Shown: piece after piece, positions 34,398-39,274 of the stretch
Numbering within the stretch: position 1 is the first letter of the stretch
How the letters are laid out: each line of letters opens with the position of its first letter
DNA from: Sphingobacteriaceae bacterium
Lineage (GTDB): Bacteria; Bacteroidota; Bacteroidia; Sphingobacteriales; Sphingobacteriaceae
Length of the DNA: 44,513 nt
NCBI GenBank assembly: GCA_947479815.1
Contig: CANKAT010000020.1
Coordinates: 1-44,513 of the forward strand
Direction of reading: 5' to 3'
Translations under genes and position numbers: made by a program
The notes under the pieces: model-generated
What the model was told of the DNA's origin: nothing
The model's input: the letters and a program-made list of their open reading frames with translations, nothing else
Databases searched by the model: none

Positions 34398-35165
34398 CTA
34401 AAAATTTAAAATTGTGCTCAGTAGTATTCCTTTATTGTTTTGAAACACATTACTTCCATTTACTTCTCTGGATAGTTGTACCATTTGATTCAGGTAACCA
34501 CCTTCAATACGGAGTTTGGATGAGTAGCGATATCCTAAAAGTATTCCCAATCTGTTCTGGTCGAAAACATTTTCATTCACGTTTTTTCCAACACCAATGA
34601 ATAGCTCATCATAAACAGCTGCGTAAGGGGTATTATCGCCAATTGTATTTCCCTTCAAAGGAATTTGTAAACGAAATAGATAACGGAATCTGTTGGAATA
34701 GACAAACTGCTCTTCTTTTTCTGATAAAGCATTGGAATATCTTCCGATCCATCTTTGCTCTAGCATGAATCGATGGCTGAGTTCAAAGTTTCTGATCTTA
34801 TCGCTCAGGTTTACCATTTGCCAGGACCGATGTTCTGTGAATTGTTTGCCTAAATTATTCAATGGGATATCTCCGTAATTATAGGTTTCTGCTAATGCAT
34901 ATCCTGCCCGAATACTAAGCTTTGGGTTTACTGTAAAGTTTATTCCTGTCCGCATCAGGTTCTGCATGGGTTTTGTGATCAGACCATCGCGTCTCCATTG
35001 AAACTCAGAATTAAAGGTCCAAGTATTGTTTAGTTTGATATTTGCACTAAATGCATACCAGCCAATCGTATTTGGATCGGTTATCCTGGTGTTTTGTGAA
35101 TAGGAAACCAGAGTAGTTGTACAAAGCACAAGGGCAAGCACGAGTTTTTTCATTTCCTTTTTCAT
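34398..35165 (-). CDS. DUF2490-domain outer-membrane-type protein
   Basis: 255 aa with a signal peptide (to SYSQ, about residue 24). The body has alternating aromatic/polar strands (GWYAFSANIKLNNTWTFNSE, YSNRFRYLFRLQIPL) and a C-terminal STILNF ending in Phe, consistent with a small outer-membrane beta-barrel. DUF2490 members have no known function. It is last after the carbonic anhydrase gene, with a terminator between them, so its expression is probably separate. Confidence 0.88.
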   Translation of the reverse strand: MKKEMKKLVLALVLCTTTLVSYSQNTRITDPNTIGWYAFSANIKLNNTWTFNSEFQWRRDGLITKPMQNLMRTGINFTVNPKLSIRAGYALAETYNYGDIPLNNLGKQFTEHRSWQMVNLSDKIRNFELSHRFMLEQRWIGRYSNALSEKEEQFVYSNRFRYLFRLQIPLKGNTIGDNTPYAAVYDELFIGVGKNVNENVFDQNRLGILLGYRYSSKLRIEGGYLNQMVQLSREVNGSNVFQNNKGILLSTILNF

Positions 35166-35232
35166 CTAAATCACAAAATGGAAGCAATAAATATATTTTC
35201 TATTTATTTTTATTATATGCCTTTATGCTTGT

Positions 35233-35263
35233 AAAAAGGGCACCTGATATTGGTGCCCTTTTT
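35233..35263 (-). terminator. Intrinsic terminator after the carbonic anhydrase gene
   Basis: Perfect 12-bp arms AAAAAGGGCACC (35233-35244) and GGTGCCCTTTTT (35252-35263) with a 7-base loop and T-run on either strand. It ends the SulP/carbonic anhydrase operon nine bases past its stop. Confidence 0.9.
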
Positions 35264-35272
35264 AATTTAGGT

Positions 35273-35914
35273 TTATTTCAGGATCAATGTATCATCATAA
35301 AATTCTACCTCGCCCGTTGAAATATCATGTGTTCCTCCAACAATTCCAATCTGTCCACTCGCTATCATCTCTTTTAAAATAGGGCTTCTTTCAATGATTG
35401 CTTTAACAGTACGCTTAACATTAATGCTAGAAACCTTTTCAACAAAAACTGAATTTCCTGAATTTCTGTTTTCCTTTACGGTAACCTCATCATCCACAGC
35501 AGGTCTTATTTTTGTTAAAAGTGCGGTAAGATTTCCCATTTCAACATGATCACATGCTCCTTTTATTGCCCCACATTTGGTATGGCCTAACACAACGATG
35601 ATCTTTGAACCTGCTACTTTACATCCAAATTCCATGCTGCCAAGAATATCTTCATTAATGATATTTCCTGCAATTCGAACACTGAATACATCACCTAATC
35701 CCTGATCAAATATTAGTTCTGCCGAAGTTCTTGAATCAATACAGCTCAATATAACCGCAAATGGATGTTGTCCATCAGAGGTTTCATTTGCTTGCTGTAA
35801 AAGGTTTCGGTTGATTTTCAAATTACTTACAAATCGCTTATTGCCATCCTTTAAAAGTTCCAGTGCTTTAGATGGAGAAATTGATTCCTGTAATTCTTTC
35901 GTAAGTGTTTTCAT
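35273..35914 (-). CDS. Beta-class carbonic anhydrase
   Basis: 213 aa, cytoplasmic. The zinc-site residues are all present: C58-x-D60-x-R62 (CIDSR) and H111-x2-C114 (HTKCG). It interconverts CO2 and bicarbonate (EC 4.2.1.1). It starts 4 bp after the SulP transporter gene and shares its transcript, so it likely balances imported bicarbonate with CO2 for carboxylation reactions. Length and motifs are normal. Confidence 0.96.
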   Translation of the reverse strand: MKTLTKELQESISPSKALELLKDGNKRFVSNLKINRNLLQQANETSDGQHPFAVILSCIDSRTSAELIFDQGLGDVFSVRIAGNIINEDILGSMEFGCKVAGSKIIVVLGHTKCGAIKGACDHVEMGNLTALLTKIRPAVDDEVTVKENRNSGNSVFVEKVSSINVKRTVKAIIERSPILKEMIASGQIGIVGGTHDISTGEVEFYDDTLILK

Positions 35915-35918
35915 AATC

Positions 35919-37475
35919 TTAATTTTTAGTTGGTTCTATAAAATTGATGGTTTCTACTTTAATATTTTTCATTTTGGCATTAGTTCGATAGTTGACTATC
36001 AACTCAACTACATCATGCGCTATAGATTTAGATTTTGTACAATCAATAATCACTCTAGAATCTGCAGGTATTTCATCTAAAACTTTCAATACGCTGGCTT
36101 TGTTAAAGAAAGAGACTTCTTGTGCAAGCTCCAGATGATAAACCTTTTGCCCATCTTCAGTACTGGTATTTGACTGTAAATGGTGTGAATTTCTATAACT
36201 GTGACGTAGTGTGTAGAAGATTCCGAAAAGTAAACCAATAGTTATACCCTTAAGGAGGTCAGTTAATAATATGGCTATTACGGTTGCTACAAATGGGATG
36301 AATTGTTCCCAACCCAATTTATACATTTGCTTAAAGAGTTCAGGTTTAGCTAGTTTATAGCCTACCATGATTAAAACTGCCGCCAAACTTGCAAGTGGAA
36401 TCATGTTCAAAAGGCCCGCAATGGTGATGGCACTAATTAATAGGAACACGCCATGCAGGATAGCAGACATTTTCGTTTTTCCACCAAATGAAATATTTGC
36501 TGAGCTTCGAACAATTACCTGGGTAATTGGCAAACCGCCAATCATTCCCGAAAGGATATTTCCTAAACCCTGAGCTTTTAGTTCTCTGTTTGTTGGGGTG
36601 ACTCTTTTGAATGGATCTATTTTATCTGTTGCCTCAACACAAAGTAGCGTTTCCAGACTAGCCACGATTGCCAATACTAGTGCAATTTTATATATTTCAG
36701 GGTTATTCAATTGAGTAAAATCGGGAAAAGTAAACTGGGTTAAGAACTGCGAGAAATTTTCTGCAACAGGAAGTTGTACCACCTGATTGCTTGCAAGACT
36801 AAAGTTCAAGATTCCGTTTTGGAATAGATAATTCATCACAATTCCTAGAATTACGACAACGATCGGTCCCTGAATCAACTGAAATATTTTATGTTTTTTA
36901 GTTAAGACAGTATCCCATAAAATTAAAATAGCAATGGATACAGAGGCAATTAGTATTGCGCCTGGTGTTACCCATTCAAATGCTGAAGCTAATGCTGAAA
37001 AGGTATTCTCACCATCAGCCTGAAAAAATGCATCGTCACCTTCAGTGTCCTTATCATATCCTAAAGCATGTGGAATCTGTTTTAATACAATGAGAAGCCC
37101 TATACCGGTTAGCATCCCCTTGATTACAGATGAAGGAAAGAAGTAGGCTATAAAACCTGCCTTGGCAAAGCCCATGGCCAATTGAATGACACCCGCTATG
37201 ACTACTGCCAATAAGAAAGCAGGCCATGAACCAAGTGTTGCAATTGATGTGAGCACAATTACTGCAAGTCCGGCTGCTGGTCCGCTAACACCAAGTGCTG
37301 ATCCGCTTGCCATTCCAACAATGATTCCGCCAACAATTCCGGCAATGATCCCTGAAAAAAGCGGTGCTCCTGATGCAAGGGCAATACCCAGACAAAGCGG
37401 AACAGCCACGAAAAACACGACAATACTCGCTGGGAGGTCGCTTTTAAGTTCTTTAAACATGTTTTTTGATTCCAT
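35919..37475 (-). CDS. SulP-family anion transporter with STAS domain (probable bicarbonate transporter)
   Basis: 518 aa; about 10-14 membrane segments (1-420), including PLCLGIALASGAPLFSGIIA, then GVSGPAAGLAVIVL, and QGLGNILSGMIGGLPITQVI. The C-terminal STAS-like domain is at roughly 430-518 (VIIDCTKSKSIAHDVVELIV). SulP members carry sulfate or bicarbonate. Direct coupling to a carbonic anhydrase gene (4 bp) makes bicarbonate the likelier cargo, as in BicA-like transporters. Regulated probably by the divergent TetR gene through the operators at 37509-37544. Confidence 0.93.
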   Translation of the reverse strand: MESKNMFKELKSDLPASIVVFFVAVPLCLGIALASGAPLFSGIIAGIVGGIIVGMASGSALGVSGPAAGLAVIVLTSIATLGSWPAFLLAVVIAGVIQLAMGFAKAGFIAYFFPSSVIKGMLTGIGLLIVLKQIPHALGYDKDTEGDDAFFQADGENTFSALASAFEWVTPGAILIASVSIAILILWDTVLTKKHKIFQLIQGPIVVVILGIVMNYLFQNGILNFSLASNQVVQLPVAENFSQFLTQFTFPDFTQLNNPEIYKIALVLAIVASLETLLCVEATDKIDPFKRVTPTNRELKAQGLGNILSGMIGGLPITQVIVRSSANISFGGKTKMSAILHGVFLLISAITIAGLLNMIPLASLAAVLIMVGYKLAKPELFKQMYKLGWEQFIPFVATVIAILLTDLLKGITIGLLFGIFYTLRHSYRNSHHLQSNTSTEDGQKVYHLELAQEVSFFNKASVLKVLDEIPADSRVIIDCTKSKSIAHDVVELIVNYRTNAKMKNIKVETINFIEPTKN

Positions 37476-37504: not shown

Positions 37505-37512
37505 CAAAGATA
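37505..37512 (-). promoter_or_regulatory. Putative -7 box for the SulP/carbonic anhydrase operon
   Basis: TATCTTTG on the minus strand matches TAnnTTTG and overlaps the start of the first operator-like site (37509-37523). A regulator bound there would block RNA polymerase. The SulP ATG is 30 bp downstream. Confidence 0.6.
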
Positions 37513-37523
37513 GTATTATTATT
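37509..37523. promoter_or_regulatory. Operator-like site 1 (imperfect)
   Basis: GATAGTATTATTATT, two mismatches to the perfect palindrome at 37530-37544, whose start lies exactly 21 bp further, about two helical turns. Same-face binding of two dimers is plausible. Confidence 0.6.
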
Positions 37524-37529
37524 TTAAAT

Positions 37530-37544
37530 GATAGTATTACTATC
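37530..37544. promoter_or_regulatory. Operator-like site 2 (perfect palindrome)
   Basis: GATAGTATTACTATC: 7-bp arms GATAGTA and TACTATC with a 1-base centre. It is in the 115-154-bp space between the divergent SulP and TetR genes, the usual place for a TetR operator. Confidence 0.65.
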
Positions 37545-37568
37545 TCATAAAATTGTAAAACTTTTATC

Positions 37569-37576
37569 TACTTTTG
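37569..37576 (+). promoter_or_regulatory. Putative -7 box for the TetR gene
   Basis: TACTTTTG matches TAnnTTTG, placed 54 bp before ATG 37630. The nearest TTG upstream (37553-37555) is at a 13-base spacing, shorter than usual. Confidence 0.45.
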
Positions 37577-37629: not shown

Positions 37630-38304
37630 ATGGAATTACACCTTCAAATAAAGATGAATGAGAAATTGTTTGTTCGTAATCCCGAGCAAACAGAATTGGG
37701 AAGGAAGATCATTGAATTTAGTATTCGGCTTATTCATGAAAATGGTTTTGAAGCCTTTACATTTAAAAAGCTAGCTGAAGTTATTGGCTCTACAGAGGCG
37801 GGGATTTATCGTTATTTTGAAAACAAGCATCGTATATTAATCTATCTAACCGCTTGGTATTGGAGCTGGCTTGAGTTTCGGGTTACATTTCACCTGAATA
37901 ATGTCTCAGATCCCTCTATTAAATTGAAGAAGCTAATTCAATTACTTGCTGCCAATGTTGTGGATGATGACAGCACCCTATATGTAGATGAAAGTCTACT
38001 GCACCAAATAGTTATTGCCGAAGGATCAAAAGCTTACCTAACCAAGCATGTTTCAGAAGATAATAAAGACAGGTTATTCAAACCCTACAAAGATCTTTGT
38101 TCTTTGATAGCCGGCATTATTCTTGAGTACAATCCAGCGTATACACACCCTCGTTCTCTTGCCACTACCATCATTGAAATGGCAAATTTGCAAATGTTTT
38201 TTATGCATCACCTGCCTTCACTCACAGATTTTGGTCAGAGTAAGGATGAGCAGCTTGTTGTAGAATTTCTTGAGGATCTGGTTTTCTGTAGTATTCGTAA
38301 ATAA
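37630..38304 (+). CDS. TetR-family transcriptional regulator
   Basis: 224 aa from ATG 37630; TTG 37591 and ATG 37654 are alternatives. The last gives MNEKLFVRNPEQTELG, which looks like the usual family start. The N-terminal HTH is FTFKKLAEVIGSTEAGIYRYFENK (about 43-66 here). The C-terminal part would hold the ligand pocket and dimer face. Its gene is divergent from SulP/carbonic anhydrase with two 15-bp palindromic sites between them, so it likely represses that operon and itself. The ligand is unknown. It ends 4 bp before the convergent nitrilase-family gene. Confidence 0.9.
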   Translation: MELHLQIKMNEKLFVRNPEQTELGRKIIEFSIRLIHENGFEAFTFKKLAEVIGSTEAGIYRYFENKHRILIYLTAWYWSWLEFRVTFHLNNVSDPSIKLKKLIQLLAANVVDDDSTLYVDESLLHQIVIAEGSKAYLTKHVSEDNKDRLFKPYKDLCSLIAGIILEYNPAYTHPRSLATTIIEMANLQMFFMHHLPSLTDFGQSKDEQLVVEFLEDLVFCSIRK

Positions 38305-38308
38305 AGAA

Positions 38309-39274
38309 TCACTTTTCTTTGTTGCTTCCTGAATTTAGCCAAGCCACATTCAGTTCAGAATGATGTTCTTTGCCAAGAATATCTTTATAAAGATCTGGTC
38401 TTCTAGCCTTTGTATAGCGGTATCCTCCTGCCATTGTTAGTTTTTCTGGAATAAGTGTTGAACTAACCAATGAGTCATCAAAGGATCTGCACTCTGCCAA
38501 AATATCCCCAAACGGATCAATGATCATGGAACATCCATTTTTTAACTGGTCATCATCCATCCCGATAGGATTTGAAAAAACAGCATATATTCCATTATCG
38601 TAGGCTCTTGATGGGAGCCATTTCATCAGCCATTCTCTTCCTTTCATCCCATCAAATTCTAGGCGAAGCGAGGTGGGGTCATTTTCGCGGTTCTGCCATA
38701 AACCAGGATCTACAAAGCCTGCACCTGGCCTTGTTGAAGGTGTGCACATGGTAACATGGGGCATGAATACTATATTAGCCCCCAGTAATACTGTTGCGCG
38801 TACATTTTCAATGACATTATTATCATAGCAGATCAGAATTCCGCATTTCCATCCGTGGAGATCAAATACGGTATAACTATTTCCAGGGTTTATATGTGCA
38901 TTGATAAAAGGGTGCAGTTTTCTATGCTTTGCGATAAGCCCATTTTTATCAACGCATACATAGGCCTTAAATATCTTATCGTCTTTATCTTTCTCAAAAA
39001 GTCCTGCTAGAATTGTAATATCATGCTTTTTGGCAATCTCAGCTAATTTCAGGATGCTTGGTCCATCAGGAATAATTTCAGCAACTTCAAGCATCTGATC
39101 TTTTGATAAGTACCTTGCAAAGGTGTAACCTGTAATTGAACATTCATGGAAAGCAATGACTTTAGAACCCTCGGCTGCTGCCTTTGCGGCTAATTTGTCA
39201 ATAACTGATAGATTATATTCCTTATTACCACTTTTATTTTCAAACTGAGCAGTGGATATTTTTAAATTTTTCAT
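38309..39274 (-). CDS. Nitrilase-family carbon-nitrogen hydrolase
   Basis: 321 aa, with the catalytic triad E44 (FHECSITGY), K119 (KHRKLHPF) and C149 (GILICYDN). These enzymes hydrolyse amides or nitriles, for example N-carbamoylputrescine or omega-amides. The substrate is not determinable. The C-terminal end overlaps nothing and sits 4 bp from the convergent TetR gene. Confidence 0.92.
   Translation of the reverse strand: MKNLKISTAQFENKSGNKEYNLSVIDKLAAKAAAEGSKVIAFHECSITGYTFARYLSKDQMLEVAEIIPDGPSILKLAEIAKKHDITILAGLFEKDKDDKIFKAYVCVDKNGLIAKHRKLHPFINAHINPGNSYTVFDLHGWKCGILICYDNNVIENVRATVLLGANIVFMPHVTMCTPSTRPGAGFVDPGLWQNRENDPTSLRLEFDGMKGREWLMKWLPSRAYDNGIYAVFSNPIGMDDDQLKNGCSMIIDPFGDILAECRSFDDSLVSSTLIPEKLTMAGGYRYTKARRPDLYKDILGKEHHSELNVAWLNSGSNKEK

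Follow-up and report, generated by a model that had tools for sequence, protein, structure and literature searches.

Predicted tandem operators between a TetR-family regulator and a SulP/carbonic anhydrase operon in a Sphingobacteriaceae bacterium, and evidence for a link to bicarbonate supply

In a 44,513-nucleotide stretch of DNA from a Sphingobacteriaceae bacterium (contig CANKAT010000020.1; the whole stretch is hereafter called the window), we found two 15-bp sites, O1 and O2, between a TetR-family regulator gene and an operon for a SulP-family anion transporter and a beta-class carbonic anhydrase (CA), and sites of the same design are kept upstream of homologous regulators. The reading that we favour, and hold to be rather likely, is that TetR is a local repressor of SulP/CA working through O1 and O2, whose inducer most likely reports a shortage of bicarbonate or the agent that causes it. 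Within this reading, repression of SulP/CA by TetR is predicted with strong confidence, while the linkage of the signal to bicarbonate, deduced from gene context, stands about evenly balanced. From the sites, their spacing, the overlap with a -7 box, their conservation, their covariation with the recognition helix and the gene context, all of which can be read from sequence, we infer binding, repression as opposed to activation, and the inducer.

In the mechanism that we propose, two TetR dimers would sit on O1 and O2, 21 bp or two helical turns apart and hence on one face of the DNA, and since O2 covers the -7 box and O1 the -33 region of the SulP/CA promoter, their binding would shut the operon. 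With O1 immediately upstream of its promoter, tetR is probably self-controlled as well. An inducer bound in the TetR core would then permit expression of the operon, so that the cell would import and interconvert inorganic carbon. A shortage of bicarbonate, or an agent causing it, would be the most likely inducer, since this regulator and operator turn up repeatedly next to unrelated bicarbonate importers, next to carbonic anhydrases and, at a few loci, next to bicarbonate-using enzymes.

The gene cluster and its operator sites

The regulator is encoded on the plus strand at 37630..38304 as a protein of 224 amino acids from the ATG at 37630, the start from which its homologues also align, and it carries an N-terminal TetR_N helix-turn-helix (Pfam PF00440, 34.8 bits against a cut-off of 24). 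On the minus strand lies the SulP gene (35919..37475; Pfam Sulfate_transp PF00916, 210.7 bits against a cut-off of 23.2), whose product is a probable bicarbonate transporter, and which scored 123.3 bits against the cut-off of 880 of the BicA equivalog NF050096. A gap of 4 bp separates it from the gene for the beta-class carbonic anhydrase (35273..35914, minus strand; Pro_CA PF00484, 133.8 bits; NCBIfam PRK15219, 252.2 bits against a cut-off of 221). The third gene of the cluster (34398..35165, minus strand) encodes a DUF2490 protein by Pfam, which recurs beside SulP, bestrophin and CA genes in Bacteroidota and methanotrophs and for which an outer-membrane role is a guess; a hairpin of 13 pairs with a T-run tail lies between the CA and DUF2490 genes at 35232-35264, and the DUF2490 gene may be transcribed separately from SulP/CA. 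A nitrilase-like gene at 38309-39274, convergent with tetR, is retained in the genus and absent from more distant relatives. The window's genome holds three TetR_N genes and two Pro_CA genes, and the closest named relative, a Daejeonella metagenome-assembled genome (MAG; locus L038), has a TetR of 90% identity and the same neighbours. Among cultivable relatives this arrangement occurs in Flavobacterium degerlachei DSM 15718 (L082), with SulP and CA, and in Pedobacter caeni DSM 16990 (L073), with CA as the only one of the two.

The intergenic region was read directly. O1, at 37530..37544, is a perfect 15-bp palindrome, GATAGTATTACTATC, with 7/7 arm pairs, and it is kept in homologues; O2, at 37509..37523, reads GATAGTATTATTATT, with two mismatches to O1 (13/15) and 5/7 arm pairs, and both are listed without a strand. 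The original prediction had described a perfect palindrome and a 13-of-15 copy starting exactly 21 bp apart, with the imperfect copy overlapping the operon's -7 box, and the letters bear this out in every particular. The Bacteroidota -7 consensus is TAnnTTTG. The -7 box of the SulP/CA operon is found at 37505..37512 on the minus strand as TATCTTTG; its plus-strand reading, CAAAGATA, is the reverse complement of that consensus facing SulP and has four bases in common with O2. A second -7 box, TACTTTTG, lies on the plus strand at 37569..37576 and faces tetR. No clear -33 element was seen at either the SulP/CA or the tetR promoter in this intergenic sequence, and TetR might still activate instead of repress.

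Taken by itself, the window sets the pair only weakly apart from chance: at up to three mismatches it holds four strand-wise matches, all at O1 and O2, while 100 shuffles of its full length gave a mean of 1.52 matches and 6/100 reached four. The perfect palindrome has one copy in the whole genome of 3.2 Mb. The decisive evidence came from homologues. We scanned 300 bp upstream of tetR in a deduplicated set of 162 distinct TetR homologues, 161 of which had usable upstream DNA, with mismatch counts that ignore the centre base of the palindrome. Sites with at most one, two or three mismatches were present at 77, 119 and 140 of the 161, where shuffles averaged 0.02, 0.2 and 2.6; in a smaller set of 106 upstream regions of 350 bp, 64 had a site with at most one mismatch and 91 with at most two (shuffles, 0.0 and 0.25). 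Conservation so far beyond the shuffles indicates that the site is not due to chance, and the comparison of orthologous intergenic regions that the original prediction had proposed as a check, with loss of the sites as its refutation, thus came out in its favour.

The regulon appears to be local in the window's genome, where the other sites all have two mismatches and lie mostly inside reading frames, so that none was accepted as a further target. As a map of the regulon across 296 Bacteroidota genomes the perfect palindrome proved too rare a word, with matches in 8 genomes and in 3 for the reversed control.

Neighbours of the regulator in close and distant relatives

Relatives were collected by a homologue search of genome contigs, from which the best 80 of 590 were kept, and from 47 TetR places in family genomes, which gave 30 loci, 20 of them refetched with wider flanks; the final set comprises 166 loci. 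An alignment was made of the window's own protein with 109 of 123 non-redundant ones, 14 divergent ones having been removed by hand. Among the best 80 of the 590 are Methylobacter, Crenothrix, a methanotrophic symbiont of Bathymodiolus, Nitrotoga and a Bdellovibrionales MAG, and six such genomes each hold one TetR copy. Sorting by three neighbours per side defined loci with genes for bicarbonate supply or use (H), loci with exporter genes (E) and others. At identities of at least 60%, 53 of 66 distinct homologues have a CA, SulP, bestrophin or SbtA gene within three genes, and 5 of the 66 have exporter genes.

As to specificity, SulP relatives at an E value of 1e-150 or better are present in 156 of 251 family genomes; in those 251 genomes, 10 of the 11 SulPs of at least 74% identity adjoin TetR (the exception is in genome G077), while among the matches listed none of the paralogues of 52-58% does. 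Several members of the genus carry both SulP types, and the window's genome carries one. Across four genomes with 19 TetR_N genes, a Pro_CA gene is found on the same contig for 4/4 orthologues and for 0/14 unrelated TetRs, the remaining one being a paralogue of 44% identity.

The partners vary. Fused SulP-CA frames occur at L051, L060 and L078, and in the Candidatus Nitrotoga locus (L051:2092-7001) one such frame lies on each side of TetR. Sua5, PEP carboxylase, carbamoyl-phosphate synthase (CPSase), biotin carboxylases and PurK all use bicarbonate, and a few loci place TetR beside such enzymes, namely CarB, AccBC, pyruvate carboxylase, PEP carboxylase and Sua5. By Pfam, L048 has a bestrophin gene with a biotin carboxylase, a PYC_OADA carboxylase and Sua5 downstream, in the order also seen at L045; the CPSase large subunit (CarB) occurs at L040 and L063, a biotin carrier at L040, SbtA with Sua5 at L095, and PEP carboxylase at L056. 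In both of the two genomes with a match, the CarB next to TetR is additional to another copy, the third searched genome giving none, and most of seven genomes hold further, weaker YrdC-like matches besides Sua5, which the genome of L093 does not. We gave little weight to PurK as a target, since it was the only copy found in 6/8 genomes and its adjacency may be housekeeping. At L040 (2-7135), CarB, biotin carrier and biotin carboxylase genes diverge from TetR, and downstream come DUF4133 and TraG genes of conjugation, so that the locus may belong to a conjugative element with extra bicarbonate-using enzymes. Plasmids as the usual carriers found no support, the plasmid search returning a single match, in Hymenobacter, at 47% identity. 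Because the same TetR and operator adjoin unrelated bicarbonate genes elsewhere, the putative link of TetR to bicarbonate supply is supported by this genomic context.

More distant homologues have other neighbours. Of 395 Bacteroidota genomes drawn, 55 had TetR matches, counting that of the window, and we fetched 60 of the 61 other places, at 37-52% identity, leaving out a 37% place in genome G356. Genes for an ABC exporter adjoin 47/60 of these homologues and bicarbonate supply genes 8/60, and 42 of 63 exporter loci carry the same operator at up to two mismatches. An operon of TetR, ABC exporter, HlyD and OEP under this operator is widespread in Bacteroidota (L136-L195). The original prediction, that TetR controls bicarbonate uptake and carbonic anhydrase, perhaps in answer to a CO2-related metabolite, stands in part: operators placed so that they would control the SulP/CA operon, their conservation and the helix-operator covariation described below speak for it, but a regulator dedicated purely to CO2 is counted against, since most distant homologues adjoin the exporter under the same operator.

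The exporter loci raise a rival, which we regard as rather unlikely, that TetR senses a toxin or drug and has the ABC-HlyD-OEP exporter as its ancestral target, having been recruited to bicarbonate supply in the window's lineage because a toxic compound starves cells of bicarbonate, for example by inhibiting carbonic anhydrase or as an anion ionophore. In its favour, besides the exporter counts, conservation reaches at least 85% at 14 positions of the ligand domain among H rows and E rows alike, which suggests that the two groups may share a ligand; moreover, exporter genes are joined to bicarbonate genes in some loci, a single TetR at L171 having a divergent CA and the exporter downstream, and L093 and L114 combining SbtA, Sua5 and exporter. 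However, no exporter gene lies next to the window's TetR, and the ligand may have changed in the bicarbonate group because C157, H186, K151 and D155 are conserved mainly there.

Some contexts have no obvious link to bicarbonate, with VTT/TerC, Usp or NhaA genes, and VTT/TerC, NhaA and bestrophin-type genes have roles at alkaline pH. The relatives that lie beside VTT (DedA-like) and TerC (5 loci, among them L094 by Pfam), beside NhaA and an Na/Ca exchanger (L099) or beside bestrophin could thus speak for a cluster that answers pH or anion stress, in which SulP and bestrophin exchange anions and carbonic anhydrase buffers pH; we find this improbable, since it leaves the SbtA, CarB, AccBC, pyruvate carboxylase, PEP carboxylase and Sua5 neighbours unexplained, to which bicarbonate is common as substrate or cargo.

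A local repressor answering to bicarbonate shortage stays our preferred reading. With rather less than even confidence we extend it to a horizontally shared switch, in which one TetR family with one operator design would sense a shortage of bicarbonate, or an agent behind it, across at least three phyla, among heterotrophs as well as chemolithotrophs, and would be freely combined with SulP, bestrophin, SbtA, carbonic anhydrases and extra copies of CarB, AccBC, pyruvate carboxylase and Sua5, sometimes on conjugative elements. How non-photosynthetic bacteria sense and correct a shortage of bicarbonate is poorly known, although carboxylations in lipid and nucleotide synthesis and in tRNA modification depend on it. 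Through a repressor dedicated to this task and its readable operator, one could list the genes deployed against such a shortage and approach unknowns that keep recurring, DUF2490 and the bacterial bestrophins among them; should the inducer be confirmed, the system would also offer a ready-made reporter of inorganic carbon inside the cell.

Pairing of the sites and covariation with the recognition helix

We examined spacing in 74 H loci, including those that also have exporter genes, taking a best site of at most three mismatches and a second of at most four. The second site lay at an offset of -21 in 39 loci, +21 in 10 and -22 in 6, against a mean of 0.08 for the other offsets from 15 to 60. 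Sites paired at 21-22 bp were present in 51/74 H loci (23/74 being single-site), and pairs occurred in 7/53 E and 5/13 other loci. Among divergent non-proteobacterial H pairs, 41 of 43 have a left site that overlaps CAAAnnTA at 5/6 positions or more, versus 1 of 17 single-site loci, from which we conclude that the second operator sits on the divergent promoter. It is very unlikely that O2 is a mere -7 box resembling the palindrome, with TetR acting at O1 alone and mostly on itself. In favour of that reading are the four bases that O2 shares with the box, the poor conservation of its outer arm and the existence of single-site H loci. Against it, the GA between CAAA and TA, free in the -7 consensus, is kept, as is the GTA beyond, and in proteobacterial pairs without that box (L045, L046, L047, L055, L064, L074) the second site persists at 22 bp.

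Ancestry confounds the raw difference in pairing between H and E loci: contrasts of paired sites against neighbour class, drawn on a 123-row tree, gave six supported contrasts and a sign test with a median p of 1, which does not support the idea that paired operators track bicarbonate neighbours independently of ancestry.

Both the recognition helix of TetR and the palindrome are nearly invariant. Lys57 occurs in two of the 166 TetRs, both with GAC...GTC palindrome arms, and Ala58 in four, whose upstream sites all come closer to GTT...AAC arms. Both sets are small and confined to a single family each (f5 and f8, respectively), so that together they amount to two events at best. Because these rare changes in the recognition helix accompany matching changes in the palindrome, they support direct binding of the palindrome by TetR, as indirect but specific evidence.

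The regulator compared with known systems

An AlphaFold2 model of TetR, with a pLDDT of 94, shows the all-helical fold of the family, including a separate ligand domain, and the structures that match it best belong to TetR proteins, reaching a Z of 16.6 (rmsd 3.3 over 184 residues). The nearest folds are the acyl-CoA-binding regulators FadR and AibR, weakly so (TM about 0.5-0.6), and TetR scored 30.4 bits against the cut-off of 200 of the FadR equivalog NF053878. No fold match named the ligand, though TetR might sense an acyl-CoA. Like TetR, QacR, FadR and AibR, the window's regulator has TetR_N, the TetR fold and palindromic sites beside its own gene and a divergent operon; unlike them, it has a ligand domain without a close match among solved TetRs, operators paired two turns apart and bicarbonate-linked targets.

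In autotrophs, the LysR-type proteins CmpR, CcmR and CbbR regulate the uptake of inorganic carbon and adjust transporters such as SbtA and BicA to the carbon supply. They belong to another protein family than the window's TetR, and unlike these autotrophs the window's host is presumably heterotrophic, as judged from its relatives. The original prediction knew of no described case, and in agreement with this our searches of an open-access library found no TetR regulator of SulP/CA. The adjacency of SulP and beta-CA resembles known SulP-carbonic anhydrase pairs and fusions, with BicA of cyanobacteria as the counterpart for SulP. A SulP/beta-CA operon is discussed for Methylococcus capsulatus (PMC11423575), and unlike in the window no TetR regulator is described for it in the consulted portion of that article, which also cites Felce and Saier 2004 on SulP-CA fusions. 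A further article, as far as its consulted portion goes, concerns MpsAB (PMC6689103).
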